This document shows positions 1,160 through 14,501 of a DNA stretch of 48,949 nucleotides, in pieces; position 1 is the stretch's first letter; each line of letters opens with the position of its first letter. A model generated the notes under the pieces. It searched no databases. It was not told where the DNA came from and saw only the letters and a program-made list of their open reading frames with translations. This DNA is from Corallococcus praedator. GTDB lineage: Bacteria; Myxococcota; Myxococcia; Myxococcales; Myxococcaceae. The position numbers and the translations under genes were made by a program. The DNA lies in the NCBI RefSeq assembly GCF_003612125.1, contig NZ_RAWI01000023.1, forward strand, positions 1 to 48,949. The letters run 5' to 3'.

Positions 1160-1181
1160 GCGCGGTTGTCCAAACCGCTCA
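1157..1181. terminator. Bidirectional terminator shared by menB and the first lipoxygenase
   Basis: TGAGC-gc-GGTT pairs with AACCGCTCA around a GTCCA loop, giving nine pairs with a two-base bulge. The hairpin includes the menB stop (1157-1159) and the complement of the lipoxygenase stop (1179-1181), so one structure could end both convergent transcripts. There is no long U-tract. Confidence 0.5.
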
Positions 1182-3242
1182 GATGTTGATGCGGGAGCTG
1201 ACCGTCCGGACATCCAGGCCCAGCGCTGAGAACTCTCCAGCGTGGGCCCGCAGCAGCTCCAGCAGCCGGGGATGCACGTCCTCTTCTTCATTGGAGAGGA
1301 TGAACCCGTAGTTCGTCTTGGACAGCATCCAGGAGATCCACAGCATCTCCGTCGCCTCATCCGGCTCCGGCGCCACGTCCAGGTCCTCTTCCGTCGACAG
1401 CGCGCCTCCCTTGCCCCAGCGAAGCCCCAGACACGAATACAGCACCTCGCCCGCGTCCTCCCACTGGAGGTTGTTCGCCCAGGCGTGCCGGAAGGTCGCG
1501 AAGAAGATGACGTAGCGGCAGAGGTTCTTCAGCGCCTCCACCTCCCCGGGCTGGGGCGAATCCGTATGCGTCACCGCGCTCACGGCCTTGGGCGGTGGCT
1601 CCGCGGCCTTCGCGTCCAGGTCCATGCGCTCCGAGCGCACGAACCACGGTGCCTCCTTCCCCGGCACCTTCGCCCGCAGATAACGACACACGAAGGCAGG
1701 CACCGAATGCGTCACGAGGTCGTCCGAGAACCGGCGCACCTCATTCCACTGCGCCTCCAACTCCGTGCCGTGCTCCGCGAAGAACGCGTCGATGTGCTCC
1801 CCGAGCAGCCGCCAGAAGAGCTGTCCGGCCTTTGCATACCGGTGCCCTTCACAGACAGGCGTCGCGGGCGCGAAGCCCTTCCAGTCATAACTGCCCATCA
1901 GGTGTTCCAGCCGCTTGTTGATACCCCGCTCCGTCAGGGCACTGGAGCGCGTGATGTATCCAGTCGACCCCACGAGGAACCCGTTGGCCGAGTGGTTGAT
2001 CAACACCACCTCCCGCAGGTGCGGCATCAACAGCCAGCGCAAGGGATTGCGTCGCAGGTTCCGGTGCGCGGCAATGGCATACTGCTCGACGTTGAAATGG
2101 CACTGCCCCAAATGGTTGCCCAACTCCACGTCCAGCGTCGCGCTCACCCGCGCCATCCGCTTGGCTGCCTCCCAATCCGCGCCGTCCGTGGGCGTGAAGG
2201 TCCGCCGTGTCACGGGTGAACCGGGCGCCGTCGCTCCTGGCTCCCGCATCCCCAGGATGATGCGCACGGGCAGCAGCCTTCCCTCCACCAGCCGCAGCCT
2301 CACGTCCACATCCGGCAGGCAGTGGCGGCCGTCCTGCTCATACGCATTCCACGGCAGGTAGAGCCGGAACGCCTGGGCATCCCCGGGGGCTTCCGGGTCC
2401 CGGTCCATCACGCTGGAGAACATGCCGTTGAGCAGGCGTTCACCGAAATAGGCATCACTCCGGGTGGAGCCCGGCGACTCCCGCTCCATCCGGGCCGTCG
2501 TCGACTCCGGATAGTCCGCTTGAATCTTCGCCAGACTCGGCGCCTGCCCCAGCCGTCCCTGGAGCTGGTGCTGCCGTTTGATGAGTTCAATGGGCGCGAC
2601 TGCCTTCAGCATCGCCAGGGAACGTCCCGGCGCATACGCCGTCGGTGGCGTGCCTTCCTCCACGACGAGCAACCGCGCCAGGGGTGACGCCGGGTCGTAT
2701 TCCCAGTAGGGAACTCGCACCGTGCCGAAGTCGTACTGGAGCCCGCCGTGGTCGTCCGGGCCCCGCTCCGAACCGATGCGCCGCCACGTCTCCACCACGC
2801 GCCCGTCCTTGCGGAACGTGTGCTGGGGCTCGAAGAAGCGAAGCTCAAGGTCCGGCAGGTCGCCTTCACCCGCGTCGGCCGGGTCGTAGCGGATGGCGAA
2901 GGCCCCGTCCGCATCCGTGAATCCCTCGCCCAGGAAGTCGTCCGGCGTCCCGAAGTCCCGGTCCCATAACTCCACCTTGAGGTGGTGCAGCGCAATGGGC
3001 CCCCGGGGACCGTCCTGCTCGAAGACCAGGCGGCCCCTGGCGACGGCGGGCAGGGTGGCTGGATCCCTTGTCGCACGCGGCGCACGCACGCGCGAAGCCA
3101 GGTTCCGGCTCACCGCCAGCCGCTGTTTCAGGTCGAGCCCCGCGTACCACCGGGCCAGCTCGTCCGGCTCCAGGAGGTCGGCTTCGGGGCTTCGGGACTT
3201 GAGGCCCAGGGACGCGATGATTCGGCGCCAGACGGTGCTCAT
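1179..3242 (-). CDS. Bacterial lipoxygenase with transthyretin-like N-terminal domain
   Basis: This 687-residue non-haem iron dioxygenase should insert O2 into polyunsaturated fatty acids to give hydroperoxides. All expected iron ligands are visible: the H-x4-H pair at H377/H382 (HLGQCH), H586 with N590 four residues later (HAWAN), and the C-terminal Ile687. The N-terminal part lacks a recognisable PLAT domain. Instead, residues about 68-185 read as a transthyretin-like/prealbumin-type beta-sandwich (GRLVFEQDG, LWDRDFGTPDDFLGEGFTDADGAF). By alignment to the plant INA(N/D)G segment, the stereochemistry-controlling Ala/Gly (Coffa) site appears to be Ser426, which is unusual; this alignment is by eye. 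It is divergent from the second lipoxygenase across 164 bases. M. xanthus has a comparable pair of characterised lipoxygenases. Family certain; regiospecificity unknown. Confidence 0.88.
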   Translation of the reverse strand: MSTVWRRIIASLGLKSRSPEADLLEPDELARWYAGLDLKQRLAVSRNLASRVRAPRATRDPATLPAVARGRLVFEQDGPRGPIALHHLKVELWDRDFGTPDDFLGEGFTDADGAFAIRYDPADAGEGDLPDLELRFFEPQHTFRKDGRVVETWRRIGSERGPDDHGGLQYDFGTVRVPYWEYDPASPLARLLVVEEGTPPTAYAPGRSLAMLKAVAPIELIKRQHQLQGRLGQAPSLAKIQADYPESTTARMERESPGSTRSDAYFGERLLNGMFSSVMDRDPEAPGDAQAFRLYLPWNAYEQDGRHCLPDVDVRLRLVEGRLLPVRIILGMREPGATAPGSPVTRRTFTPTDGADWEAAKRMARVSATLDVELGNHLGQCHFNVEQYAIAAHRNLRRNPLRWLLMPHLREVVLINHSANGFLVGSTGYITRSSALTERGINKRLEHLMGSYDWKGFAPATPVCEGHRYAKAGQLFWRLLGEHIDAFFAEHGTELEAQWNEVRRFSDDLVTHSVPAFVCRYLRAKVPGKEAPWFVRSERMDLDAKAAEPPPKAVSAVTHTDSPQPGEVEALKNLCRYVIFFATFRHAWANNLQWEDAGEVLYSCLGLRWGKGGALSTEEDLDVAPEPDEATEMLWISWMLSKTNYGFILSNEEEDVHPRLLELLRAHAGEFSALGLDVRTVSSRINI

Positions 3243-3406: not shown

Positions 3407-5437
3407 ATGACTGTCGATTACACGCTAACGATTCGCACGAACTCGCGGCTCGGTGCGGGAACCAACGCCAACATCTCTGTCGTGCTGGTTGGGACGCAGG
3501 GTGAAAGCGACTCACACCCGCTGGACAAGCGCTTCCACAATGACTTCGAAGCCGGAGCGCAGGACTCCTATCCGCTCCAGACCCGCGACCTGGGCGAGCT
3601 GCTGCTTCTCCGTTTCTCGAACACCGGCAATGGCGTCGCGAGCGACTGGCTGCTCGACAATGTCGTCGTCACCGCGGGAGAGAAGCGCTGGTTCTTCCCC
3701 CACCACCGCTGGGTGCTGGGCAGGGCGACCGTGGAGGTCCTCGAAGGCACGGCGCGAATGGCGCATCAGGAGCAGCACGAGCGCGCGGCGTCCGCCCGTC
3801 AGGAGCAGCTCCAGGCACGCCAGCGGATGTACGGCTGGCGTGCGCCCGAGGCCACCGCCGGGCTGCCCGGGGCGCTCGACATCAGCGAGGCGAAGCCGCT
3901 CCCGAAAGATGAACTGTACCGGGGCCTCGTGGATGGCAGCTACGAGGTGGTCATCGCGAAGACGCTGGCGGCCATCAAGCTGCACATGCCCCTGCTGAAC
4001 AAGGCGTGGAACGGCCTGGTGGACATCTTCGACTTCTTCAAGGGCATCGAGCTGCCCCAGCTCGCCAACCGGTGGAAGGACGACTACGAGTTCGCCCGGC
4101 AGGCCGTCCAGGGCATCACCCCCGTCCACATCCAGTCCATCACCGCGCTGCCCCAGGGCCTGCCGCTCGCGGACGGAGACCTGCACGGCCTGCTGTCACC
4201 GGGCACCTCGCTGGCCCAGGCGCTCGCGTCGAAGCGGATCTTCCTGCTCGACTTCGAGATCCTGGACGACGTGCCCATGTTCAAGAAGGTGGACGAGAAG
4301 GGCGTCGAGGAGCGGCGCTGGTCGCCCGCGTCCCGCTGCCTGCTGTACCTGGACGACACCCGGCAGTTGCGGCCCATCGCCATCCAGCTCGGCCGGGACC
4401 CGGAGAAGGATCCGGTGTTCACGCCCAATGACAGCCAATATGACTGGCTGGCCGCGAAGATCTACGTCCGGTGCAGCGAAGGCAATACGCACCAGATGGT
4501 GGGGCACGCGCTGCGGACGCACTTCATCGCGGAGCCGTTCGTCATGGCGACGATGCGCAACCTCCCGGACCCCCACCCTGTCTACAAGCTGCTGCGCCGG
4601 CACTTCCGGTACACGCTCGCCATCAACGATGGCGCCCGAAGGGGCCTGCTCGCGGAGGGCGGCGTGTTCGACGACATCATCGCCACCGGCGGCCCCGACA
4701 AGGGCCACGTGTTCCTGGGCAAGAAGGGCTACCAGCGCTGGAAGCTGACGGACAACAAGCCGCGCCAGGACATCGAGCGCCGCGGGGTGATGGATCCAGC
4801 GGTGCTCCCACACTACCCGTACCGGGACGACGCGCTGCCCTTGTGGGACGCGTTCGAGGAATACGTCGGCGGGGTGCTCGGGCACTTCTACAAGTCCGAC
4901 GCGGACCTCATGAACGACGTCGAGATGCAGCGCTGGTGGGCCGACCTCATCTCGCACGGCATGTCGGTGGAGAAGCTGCCCTGCACGGAGCTCAAGCGCG
5001 TCGCGGACCTGGTGGACATCCTCACCACCGTCCTCTTCACCGTCAGCGTCCAGCACGCGGCGGTGAACTACCTCCAGTACGAACACTATGCCTTCGTGCC
5101 GAACGCGCCCCTGTGCATGCGCAAGCCGCCTCCGACGAAGAAGGGCCTCATCGGGCCGGATGACATCGTGGAGATGATTCCCACCAAGTCGCAGATGCTC
5201 TGGCAGGTCTCCATCGGCCGCGCGCTCTCCAGCTTCGGTGACGACGAGGAGTACCTGCTCCACGAGGGCGGCTGGTACGAGGAGTATTTCCAGGAGCCGG
5301 AGGTGCTCGCCCTCCGCGACCGCTTCCATGCCCGGCTGCGCGCCCAGCGCGACGCGGTGAAGGCTCGCAACGAGAAGTGCGAAGTGCCCTACACGGTCCT
5401 GCAGTCCGACCGGATCCCCTGCGGCATCACCGTCTGA
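3407..5437 (+). CDS. PLAT-domain lipoxygenase
   Basis: From the ATG at 3407 the protein has 676 residues. The reading frame is open further upstream, but homology begins here and a purine-rich ribosome-binding site precedes it. Residues about 1-115 form a PLAT/LH2 beta-sandwich (YTLTIRTNSRLGAGTNANI, then a WFFPHHRW segment). The catalytic domain shows H367/H372 (HALRTH), H550 with N554 (HAAVN), and a C-terminal Val676 whose carboxylate would be the fifth protein ligand; Ile is more usual. The aligned Coffa position appears to be Ala416, which in known enzymes goes with S-hydroperoxide products. The P450 gene follows after 20 bases in the same direction, so its hydroperoxide product is the likely P450 substrate. 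Family certain; fatty-acid substrate and position are inferred. Confidence 0.9.
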   Translation: MTVDYTLTIRTNSRLGAGTNANISVVLVGTQGESDSHPLDKRFHNDFEAGAQDSYPLQTRDLGELLLLRFSNTGNGVASDWLLDNVVVTAGEKRWFFPHHRWVLGRATVEVLEGTARMAHQEQHERAASARQEQLQARQRMYGWRAPEATAGLPGALDISEAKPLPKDELYRGLVDGSYEVVIAKTLAAIKLHMPLLNKAWNGLVDIFDFFKGIELPQLANRWKDDYEFARQAVQGITPVHIQSITALPQGLPLADGDLHGLLSPGTSLAQALASKRIFLLDFEILDDVPMFKKVDEKGVEERRWSPASRCLLYLDDTRQLRPIAIQLGRDPEKDPVFTPNDSQYDWLAAKIYVRCSEGNTHQMVGHALRTHFIAEPFVMATMRNLPDPHPVYKLLRRHFRYTLAINDGARRGLLAEGGVFDDIIATGGPDKGHVFLGKKGYQRWKLTDNKPRQDIERRGVMDPAVLPHYPYRDDALPLWDAFEEYVGGVLGHFYKSDADLMNDVEMQRWWADLISHGMSVEKLPCTELKRVADLVDILTTVLFTVSVQHAAVNYLQYEHYAFVPNAPLCMRKPPPTKKGLIGPDDIVEMIPTKSQMLWQVSIGRALSSFGDDEEYLLHEGGWYEEYFQEPEVLALRDRFHARLRAQRDAVKARNEKCEVPYTVLQSDRIPCGITV

Positions 5438-5457
5438 GACGTCTGGAGAAGATGCCC

Positions 5458-6882
5458 ATGCCCAACCTGCTTTCTCGTGGCCTGTTCAACCTGTTCTTCG
5501 GTTCCAGGCGCAAGCCCTTCGCTTCACTCCCCGGGCCGCAGCCCGGCGTGCTCGGCACCGCGGGTGACTTCCTGGGGCCCCAGCCCTGGGACGTCTGCGC
5601 GCGGTATGGCCGCGAGTACGGCGGTGTCACGCTCATCTGGATGGGGCCCAGCCCCGGCGTGGTGCTCAACGACCCCGCGATCATCGCGGAGGTGCTGGAG
5701 TCCCCCCGCCGGATGGAGTTCGAGAAGGGAAACATCAGCGAGCAGATCCGGCCCACGGTGACGGACGACACGGTCTTCATCGCGAAGCTGAGCGGGGACT
5801 GGGCCCAGAAGCGCAAGCTGGAGCCCATGGAGCAGCCCTGGTCCCCGAAGTGGCTGGCCGCCCAGGTGGAGCCGATGCACCGGTCCATCGTGGAGTCCGT
5901 GGAGGCCCTGCTGAAGGAGCCCTCCATCGACTACACCACCGCGATGCGGAAGCTGACCTTCGACGCCTTCGCGGTGGCGGCGGTGGGGGAGAGGCTTCCG
6001 ACCTCCGTGTTCGACGACTTCATGCTGCTGGCGAAGGGCGCGGATGCCCGGATCCAGGCGAAGCTGCCATTGAAGTTCGTCTCGCCGCCCAAGGGCTTCG
6101 ACGAGGCGAAGGCGCGCTTCTATGGCCAGTTCGCGGACCGGGTGCGCGCCGCGCGCAAGAACCCGAATCCCCAGGGCGTGGACGTGATGTCGTGGACGCT
6201 GCGCGAGACGCCTGGGATTGATGACCAGGTGCTGGCGCACCTGCTGGGCGGCATCTTCTACGGAGGCGCCTTCTCCTCCAGCGTCACGCTGGTGGGGGCG
6301 TTCCACCAGCTCCAGAAGCATCCCCAGGCGGAGGCACGGCTCGCGCAGGAGGCTGCTTCGCTGGGGGACGGGCCGCTGACGTTCGAGAAGCTGGGCCATG
6401 CGCCCTGGGCGGAGGCCTGCGCCTTCGAATCCCTGCGCCTCCTGCCGGCGGTCCGGGTCTTCACCCGCACGCCGTCGAAGGACGCGCAGCTCGCGGGCGT
6501 CACGCTGCCCGCGGGCGCGATGATCATGATCTCCAACCAGCACCTGCACCGGGACCCGGCCCACTGGACGGAGCCGGACACGTACCACCCCGCGCGCTGG
6601 CTGGACGGCGGCGCGGCCCGGGATCCGCTGGGCAGCGGTCACTTCTTCCCGTTCGGACGGGGCCCGCGCGCGTGCGTGGGCGGGGACTTCGCGATGGTGT
6701 TCCTTCGCACGGCGCTGGCGACCATCGCCGCGCGTGCGAAGGCCCAGGTCGATTCGACGGAGCCCTTCGAAGAGGGGTTCTTCTTCGGCGTCGTGCTTCC
6801 CAAGGGCGTCACCGGGAAGCTCGTCGCGCGCTCATCGCAAGCAGCGCGGGCCACTCCGCCGGTGGGAGCCATCTCCGCTTGA
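5458..6882 (+). CDS. Cytochrome P450, probable fatty-acid hydroperoxide-metabolising (CYP74-like function)
   Basis: This 474-residue P450 shows W115-x3-R119 (C helix), E324-x2-R327 (ExxR) and the haem loop FPFGRGPRACVGG with the iron-binding Cys406. The I-helix, normally (A/G)Gx(D/E)T, reads G269-G-A-F-S-S274. The acid is Phe272 and the threonine is Ser273, so the usual proton relay for O2 activation is missing. Loss of that pair is known in P450s that use a ready-made peroxide (CYP74 allene oxide synthases and hydroperoxide lyases; CYP152 peroxygenases use another variant). Together with the lipoxygenase gene 20 bases upstream, this suggests conversion of fatty-acid hydroperoxides. ATG 5458 is preferred over 5452 because GGAG at 5445-5448 is then nine bases upstream. 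There is no membrane anchor. Redox partners are absent nearby. P450 call is certain; reaction is inferred. Confidence 0.88.
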   Translation: MPNLLSRGLFNLFFGSRRKPFASLPGPQPGVLGTAGDFLGPQPWDVCARYGREYGGVTLIWMGPSPGVVLNDPAIIAEVLESPRRMEFEKGNISEQIRPTVTDDTVFIAKLSGDWAQKRKLEPMEQPWSPKWLAAQVEPMHRSIVESVEALLKEPSIDYTTAMRKLTFDAFAVAAVGERLPTSVFDDFMLLAKGADARIQAKLPLKFVSPPKGFDEAKARFYGQFADRVRAARKNPNPQGVDVMSWTLRETPGIDDQVLAHLLGGIFYGGAFSSSVTLVGAFHQLQKHPQAEARLAQEAASLGDGPLTFEKLGHAPWAEACAFESLRLLPAVRVFTRTPSKDAQLAGVTLPAGAMIMISNQHLHRDPAHWTEPDTYHPARWLDGGAARDPLGSGHFFPFGRGPRACVGGDFAMVFLRTALATIAARAKAQVDSTEPFEEGFFFGVVLPKGVTGKLVARSSQAARATPPVGAISA

Positions 6883-12450: not shown

Positions 12451-13190
12451 TCAGGCCGCGTCGTGGAAGATGATGCCCGCGGTGTGCCTCTGCCCTGAAC
12501 GCACCCGGCTGACGCCGTGCCGGAGGTTGACGCGGTAGGTGCCCCGCGTGCCCTGCACCGGACGGTGATGCACCGCGAAGACGACCGCGTCCCCCTGTCG
12601 CAGCGGGACGACCTCCGGTCGAGACTGCATCCGGGGCCGCTGCTCCGACAGCACGAACTCACCGCCCGTGAAGTCCCGTCCCGGCTCCGACAACAGGAAG
12701 GCCACCTGGAGCGGGAAGACATGCTCCCCGTAAAGGTCCTGGTGCAGGCAGTTGTAGTCCTCCGCGCCGTAGCGCAGCAGCAGCGGCGTGGGCCGCACCT
12801 GTCCCGCCGCGTGACAGCGCGCGAGGAACTCCGCGTGCGCTTGCGGATACCGCACGTCGATGCCCATCGCCGTGTTCCAGCGGTTCGCGATGGGCACGAG
12901 CCGCGGGTACAGCGCCGTGCGCAGCTCCGACACCACCTCCGGCAGGGGATGGTCGAAGTACTGATATTCCCCCCGCCCGAACCCGTGCCGCGCCATCACC
13001 ACCCGACTGCGAAACGCCCCCTCCACGTCGTACAGCAGCGCCAGGGCCTCGCACTCCTCGGCGGTGAGCAGCCGCTCCATGGTCGCGCAGCCCCGCGCAT
13101 CCAACTCCTGCTCCACCGCGCCCCAATCCACCGTCCCCACGCGGGTCGCGATTCCATCCACCGGGGATGGCGCGAACGCACCCCGGGTCC

Positions 13191-13194
<4 letters not shown>
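12451..13194 (-). CDS. 2OG-Fe(II) oxygenase, predicted DNA-alkylation repair (PF09859-type)
   Basis: 247 residues. The double-stranded beta-helix iron site is visible as H151-x-D153 (CLHQDLYG). The distal His is probably H209 or H210, and a 2-oxoglutarate-binding Arg follows (VHHRPVQGTR). The sequence fits the family annotated as 'oxygenase, catalysing oxidative methylation of damaged DNA' (PF09859/COG3826). This is recognised from its conserved segments (RHGFGRGEYQYF, RYGAEDYNCLHQDLYGEHVF), and I could not run a search. It is not a classical AlkB. The start codon overlaps the ada stop (ATGA at 13194-13191), so the two are translationally coupled, which supports a repair role. Direct substrate unknown. 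Confidence 0.82.
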
Positions 13195-14264
<1,070 letters not shown>

Positions 14265-14501
14265 GGTGTGTTGCCTCCCTTCGAGAGCGGTCCTCATGAC
14301 CACGCCCGGAAACTAACCTCCGCGCTGGAGGTCAGCACTCCGCGGCTTGCTCTCGAATTCGCCCGGGCCCCCATGAGGCGTGCGACATGCGCCCACCACC
14401 AGGCCAGACAGAGACGAGTCCCTCGCGGCCTGCACGCTCGCGGTCGGCATGACAGGATGCCGCGCCCCACTTCCCCGTTGCCGGTACGAGACGAGCACGC
14501 C

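Follow-up and report, generated by a model that had tools for sequence, protein, structure and literature searches.

The 48,949-nucleotide stretch of DNA analysed here (the window) makes up an entire contig (C648; NZ_RAWI01000023.1) of the 10.5 Mb genome of Corallococcus praedator, a member of the Myxococcota. At one end lies a single locus made up of a divergent lipoxygenase gene on the minus strand (LOX2, 1179–3242) and, on the plus strand, a gene encoding a PLAT-lipoxygenase of animal type (LOX1, 3407–5437, ATG at 3407 to the stop) followed by one encoding a cytochrome P450 of 474 amino acids (5458–6882, ATG at 5458 to the stop). The gap between LOX1 and the P450 gene is 20 nt, so that the positions and order given in an earlier reading of this DNA from its letters alone (hereafter the sequence-only reading) are correct. 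A GGAGA element at 5445–5449 on the plus strand, 8 nt before the ATG at 5458, is the likely ribosome-binding site of the P450 gene. Use of an alternative ATG at 5452 would reduce the gap to 14 nt, but the start at 5458 is favoured because the N-terminus of the protein is conserved, with Met1, Pro2, Asn3, Ser6 and Arg7 being invariant in all 19 aligned orthologues. The two genes may well be transcribed as one message.

LOX1 scores 259 bits against PF00305 and 71.3 bits against PF01477, with a PLAT/LH2 domain matched in Pfam at residues 5–105 (3419–3721, plus strand). The best solved relative is human 5-lipoxygenase (5-LOX; 3o8y, the best chain, 392.7 bits), followed by coral lipoxygenases. All of the iron ligands are present, as the sequence-only reading had it (H367, H372, H550, N554 and the C-terminal residue), although the last of these is Val676 and not isoleucine. 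Among the 60 aligned rows that reach the C-terminus, the final residue is valine in 58 and isoleucine in two (the set numbers 61 rows, including duplicate loci of some genomes, the 61st being a fragment). At the position aligned with Ala424 of 5-LOX, which we take to be the stereo-determining 'Coffa' site, LOX1 has alanine, as do all 60 rows that have a residue in this column; S hydroperoxides are therefore predicted, assuming that the usual rule for this site applies. The divergent second lipoxygenase is also real: LOX2 matches PF00305 at 34.8 bits (cut-off 23.6) and keeps five ligand positions (H377, H382, H586, N590 and Ile687), with no PLAT match in Pfam. The idea that LOX2 is a dead enzyme was rejected on the grounds that every ligand position is kept.

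The P450 matches PF00067 at 156.1 bits and has the hallmarks of the superfamily: E324 and R327 of the ExxR motif and the cysteine ligand C406 are found in all 47 orthologous sequences (from 45 genomes, and including second copies in G084, which is broken, and G066). What sets it apart is the core of the I-helix (6262–6282), which reads G269-G270-A271-F272-S273-S274-S275. When aligned by phmmer with ferruginol synthase (5ylw), F272 (6271–6273) falls on the aspartate and S273 (6274–6276) on the threonine, and both residues are identical in 47 of 47 orthologues, which bears out the proposal that Phe272-Ser273 stands in place of the acid–threonine pair. Invariance in itself is unremarkable, since 88 of the first 459 alignment columns are invariant (G270 and W115 among them, along with E324, R327 and C406); it is the type of residue at 272 and 273 that stands out. 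No orthologue has aspartate or glutamate anywhere in residues 262–283, and glutamine or asparagine occurs near the ends of this stretch in four rows. Judged by these alignments, the acid is clearly lost from the I-helix; Ser273 is still an alcohol.

Most other P450s of this genome and its relatives keep the acid: among the 36 best-scoring matches (with two G077 genes counted twice), 34 have aspartate or glutamate in the acid column, the exceptions being a glycine (L098) and a glutamate one column off (L123_1). L098 is itself encoded in the C. praedator genome and reads AGHGPP at the I-helix, with both acid and threonine missing. More distant homologues of the LOX1-adjacent P450, at 33% identity (G091 and G092, GGMTSITS) and 28% identity (G027, GGVWSVTA), are likewise without the acid and retain the serine. 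Elsewhere in the protein, the arginine of the WxxxR motif is kept in 30 of the 47 orthologues and replaced by histidine in 16 and asparagine in one, and the CxG of the haem region is CxA in 23. Features of monooxygenases are thus loosened, and we count this in favour of an enzyme that rearranges peroxides. The haem loop itself (FGRGPRACVG, F399–G408, 6652–6681, with Cys406) is of ordinary length, with F399, G402, R404 and C406 present in 47 of 47. An AlphaFold2 model of the P450 built with 19 close orthologues proved unusable, with a mean predicted local distance difference test score of 47.2.

The same features can be read in another way, with the P450 acting as a monooxygenase that depends on a redox partner and hydroxylates or epoxidises either the lipoxygenase product or the fatty acid itself, and with the work of the acid done by a water held by Ser273–Ser275 or by a polar substrate group. 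P450eryF and P450cin are active monooxygenases in which the pair is altered; the haem loop, the ExxR motif and, for the most part, the WxxxR motif of the present enzyme are ordinary; and the nearest solved chains (CYP3A, ferruginol synthase, LUT5, CYP120 and CYP51, among the best 60) are monooxygenases. Set against this is the loss of the acid in every orthologue when 34 of 36 comparison rows keep it. There is also no convincing redox gene nearby: a scan of short open reading frames for iron–sulphur motifs in the window's first 12 kb and in 24 related loci gave no convincing ferredoxin-like candidate, the sole match (in L046) lying in a seemingly out-of-frame reading frame, although this is a weak negative because redox partners can be encoded elsewhere. 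We regard a monooxygenase of this type as rather unlikely, but as the leading alternative, and one that deserves to be taken seriously.

The association of the P450 with lipoxygenase was examined across 195 Myxococcota genomes (match threshold 1e-30, with at most eight candidates scored per genome). P450 matches were found in 49, of which 45 are at least 59% identical and were treated as orthologues, the other four (G027, G065, G091 and G092) being 29–34% identical. LOX1, defined by a PF00305 match of 4.8e-70 or better, is present in 46 genomes, and 45 of these encode the P450 orthologue, as against none of the 149 genomes that lack LOX1; the next PF00305 match (G182, 6.5e-70, another family) was left out, and counting it would give 45 of 47. 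In every one of the 45 genomes LOX1 is immediately followed by the P450 gene, which is encoded on the same strand after a gap of 11–54 nt, whilst the flanking genes turn over around the conserved pair. LOX2 is found in 44 of the 45, in keeping with a two-lipoxygenase setting; judging from coordinates, 40 of these have it at this locus and four (G063, G066, G073 and G074) at another place in the genome, with none in G064. In G090 (L071) the order is LOX1–P450–LOX2, all on one strand. The P450 of the window shares 96% identity with that of Corallococcus terminator (L038).

These counts make the linkage stronger than the sequence-only reading could know, and homologues are not usually found away from lipoxygenases: 46 of the 47 P450 copies adjoin LOX1, or in one case (the broken G084 copy) a LOX1 fragment. 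The 45 pairs are not 45 independent events, as all fall within one family, and the argument rests instead on adjacency being kept while the flanks change. Nor is it independent evidence that LOX1 and P450 identities rise together when genome pairs are compared (Spearman 0.85), since joint descent predicts this. Could the P450 be a neighbour by descent only, with a function unrelated to lipoxygenase? That every case lies within one family would fit, as would a 61% identical paralogue in G066 (L072) that has no lipoxygenase beside it. We nevertheless consider this very improbable, given the tight adjacency in 45 of 45 genomes amid changing flanks, the survival of the trio intact but rearranged in G090 and the overlap of the P450 gene with a desaturase gene in 22 genomes. 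Bacterial lipoxygenases in general do not seem to be paired in this way, as none of eight lipoxygenases on plasmids has an annotated P450 within 4 kb (a small sample, drawn from an incomplete gene table).

The desaturase gene is new here. In 23 of the 45 genomes, among them that of Myxococcus xanthus, it comes straight after the P450 gene, the two sharing 4 nt in 22 cases and being 28 nt apart in one. In M. xanthus AM003 it encodes a fatty-acid desaturase of 281 amino acids (L049 7434–8276; PF00487, 93.4 bits) and shares its first 4 nt with the end of the P450 gene; another example, again a PF00487 match behind the P450 gene, is at L140 1972–2811. The P450 gene of G120 is at a contig end, placing its downstream gene beyond view, and the 21 genomes with no adjacent desaturase comprise 16 of the window's own genus together with G062, G063, G064, G066 and G090 (in 15 of the 21 the search covered 1.5 kb behind the P450 gene). 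A desaturase at least 72% identical is encoded somewhere in all 45 genomes; that of C. praedator is 73% identical and on contig C647. Neither NCBIfam nor PDB searches assigned a regiospecificity to the desaturase. The adjacent desaturase strengthens the reading of LOX1 and the P450 as parts of a fatty-acid pathway. No PfaA match above the cut-off was found in the C. praedator genome when a polyunsaturated fatty acid synthase was sought as the source of substrate, so the acid probably comes from desaturases, from outside or from prey.

The position of the P450 gene beside that of a hydroperoxide maker, together with the loss of the I-helix acid, would also suit a peroxygenase working in the manner of CYP152, in which the lipoxygenase hydroperoxide or hydrogen peroxide serves as oxygen donor for the oxidation of another site or another fatty acid. 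CYP152 peroxygenases have an Arg-Pro in the I-helix. There is none in GGAFSS, and no aligned P450 orthologue has an arginine in the motif; nothing points to a second substrate either. A peroxygenase seems to us a distinctly improbable assignment.

CYP74 enzymes (allene oxide synthase, hydroperoxide lyase and epoxyalcohol synthase) lack the acid–alcohol pair in the I-helix and rearrange lipoxygenase hydroperoxides, and the sequence-only reading had likened the P450 to them. As a statement of kinship this finds no support here. A nine-residue extra motif in the haem-binding domain is given as a CYP74 trait in the accessible part of one source (PMC10813956) and is not present in this P450, with its FGRGPRACVG loop of ordinary length; on this basis membership of CYP74 was rejected. 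The nearest solved chains are monooxygenases, and no CYP74 or CYP8A1 enzyme is found among the best 60 of 306, or the best 60 of 542, solved chains. CYP74-like function would for both reasons be convergent: the P450 may work like a CYP74 enzyme without being filed in that family.

How might the Phe-Ser pair compare with the corresponding residues of known peroxide-handling P450s? The groove sequences printed in the available part of PMC13049297 are FATcFN for plant allene oxide synthase, ATQGN for prostacyclin synthase and AGYEI for thromboxane synthase. Aligned by eye with GGAFS, these place Phe, Gly and Glu, respectively, at the acid position and Asn, Asn and Ile at the alcohol position. Self-sufficient P450s therefore show several solutions in the groove, and Phe-Ser is compatible with them, which is not proof. 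The present P450 would share with CYP74 the use of lipoxygenase products (in its case proposed) and an altered pair, with Phe at the acid position as in the plant enzyme, but has Ser where that enzyme has Asn. Prostacyclin and thromboxane synthases (CYP8A1 and CYP5A1) also have a modified I-helix and rearrange a peroxide without a redox partner, but their substrate is an endoperoxide from cyclooxygenase and their alcohol position is occupied by Asn or Ile. Fungal dioxygenase–P450 fusions (linoleate diol, epoxyalcohol and allene oxide synthases), as described in the same part of PMC13049297, likewise make a peroxide former and a self-sufficient P450 together, in their case as one chain in which a haem dioxygenase is joined to the P450, whereas here the peroxide former is a non-haem iron lipoxygenase and the P450 has a gene of its own. 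Among bacteria, Methylobacterium MnHPL and MspCYP74 are P450s listed among peroxide-rearranging enzymes of the CYP74 clan in a figure legend of PMC10813956.

In a tree of 41 P450 rows, six of the orthologues group with the 33% (G091 and G092) and 28% (G027) homologues with a support of 91/100 and on a long stem, a grouping that carries little weight as long branches meet there. The neighbourhoods of these homologues differ from that of the window. In G091 and G092 (L077 3184–11980, and L078) roughly 5 kb separate the P450 gene from that of a different lipoxygenase, which is encoded on the opposite strand; genes for two proteins of around 550–600 amino acids lie in between, and one of the two (L077 6767–8437) has a weak peptidase C25 score. 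By eye, a protein of this kind, starting LELLL(V/T)HAD, recurs beside other myxobacterial lipoxygenases (L087 8215–9879 and L088 5801–7486, as well as L077 6767–8437); a Pfam scan of that in L087 gave no family. In G027 a P450 joined to cyclic nucleotide monophosphate-binding domains (L076 3354–5540), its I-helix reading AGTEI and resembling thromboxane synthase in our alignment, is followed by the 28% relative (5549–6868, GGVWS). Beyond the Myxococcota genomes, one partial relative turned up when viral contigs were scanned for distant P450s, and plasmids yielded one relative at 1e-25, 26.5% identical, on a Streptomyces plasmid.

Taking the evidence together, we lean towards an oxylipin operon of the Myxococcaceae in which a lipoxygenase product is rearranged by a P450 that is independent of redox partners. 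LOX1, and probably LOX2 also, would add a hydroperoxide to a polyunsaturated fatty acid; the O–O bond would then be broken at the P450 haem and the molecule rearranged with no need of O2, NADPH or a redox partner, which is a plausible mechanism. The likeliest product would be an epoxyalcohol of the hepoxilin type, with an allene oxide, an aldehyde or a diol also possible, and the desaturase encoded by the third gene in many relatives would supply or adjust the unsaturated acid.

Several observations weigh against this proposal. Serine at the alcohol position may partly serve proton delivery, and the haem loop, ExxR motif and (in 30 of 47) WxxxR motif are those of a monooxygenase. Nor does such chemistry demand that the acid be lost, since thromboxane synthase, as aligned above, keeps its glutamate. 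G093 holds LOX1 without the P450, the G066 paralogue stands apart from any lipoxygenase and the linkage is confined to one bacterial family. The desaturase is not specific to the pathway, as it also occurs in genomes lacking the P450. Finally, as the main result against the proposal, purified lipoxygenases of M. xanthus are described in the available part of An et al. (2018; PMC5760719) as converting their own hydroperoxides to hepoxilins without any P450, and these hepoxilins can be explained without invoking a P450 hepoxilin synthase.

That study, in the part available, identifies MXAN_1744 as an arachidonate 11-LOX and MXAN_1745 as an arachidonate 12-LOX, the two forming 11S- and 12S-hydroperoxides, and reports that the epoxide hydrolase MXAN_1644 makes trioxilins (PMC5760719). 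Arachidonate-fed cultures contained hydroxy acids, hepoxilin B3 (HXB3), prostaglandins G2 and H2 (PGG2/PGH2, identified by database match) along with four compounds that had no match, and two proteins assayed as thromboxane synthases, MXAN_0683 and MXAN_2304, were inactive (PMC5760719). As the M. xanthus genome in our survey (G137) has two PF00305 genes, both at the LOX1–LOX2–P450 locus, LOX1 and LOX2 very probably correspond, as a pair, to MXAN_1744 and MXAN_1745. The adjacent P450 should then be MXAN_1743 or MXAN_1746, neither of which is mentioned in the text of PMC5760719. No published description of the LOX1-adjacent P450 was recognised, from titles, opening lines of abstracts and text passages, in the open-access literature searched, subscription papers being mostly outside its coverage; the words desaturase, P450 and lipoxygenase are also all absent from a paper on M. 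xanthus lipids.

Other lipoxygenase genes were seen in passing. The third lipoxygenase gene of the C. praedator genome is near one for an FMO-like flavin monooxygenase (L086 6699–10617). On three Rhodococcus plasmids (L134, L137 and L138) a lipoxygenase gene sits between an acyl-acyl carrier protein thioesterase gene and a YncE-family gene, and a Burkholderia stagnalis plasmid gene for a protein of about 1325 amino acids (L135 1637–5614), annotated as an FAD-dependent oxidoreductase, contains a lipoxygenase-like stretch and is perhaps a fusion. Further along the window (12451–14303), a gene for an Ada-type repair protein is followed by one for a PF09859 oxygenase, likely an alkylation-repair pair.

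For M. xanthus, a genetic model, the formation of eicosanoid-like products by the two lipoxygenases is established, and a gene almost always locked to one of them seems, within the open-access literature covered, to have gone undescribed. It is possible, and we put it forward tentatively, that myxobacteria evolved a hydroperoxide-rearranging P450 of their own, separate from CYP74 and from the self-sufficient P450s of fungi and animals, in a lipoxygenase–P450–desaturase operon that forms a complete bacterial oxylipin pathway for signalling, development or predation. If the P450 does carry out reductase-free rearrangement, it would represent a further independent origin of CYP74-type chemistry and provide a bacterial enzyme in which to study how a P450 chooses between peroxide rearrangement and O2 activation. 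It would also bring the oxylipin enzymes of myxobacteria, at present a loose collection, together as a defined pathway open to deletion and assay.

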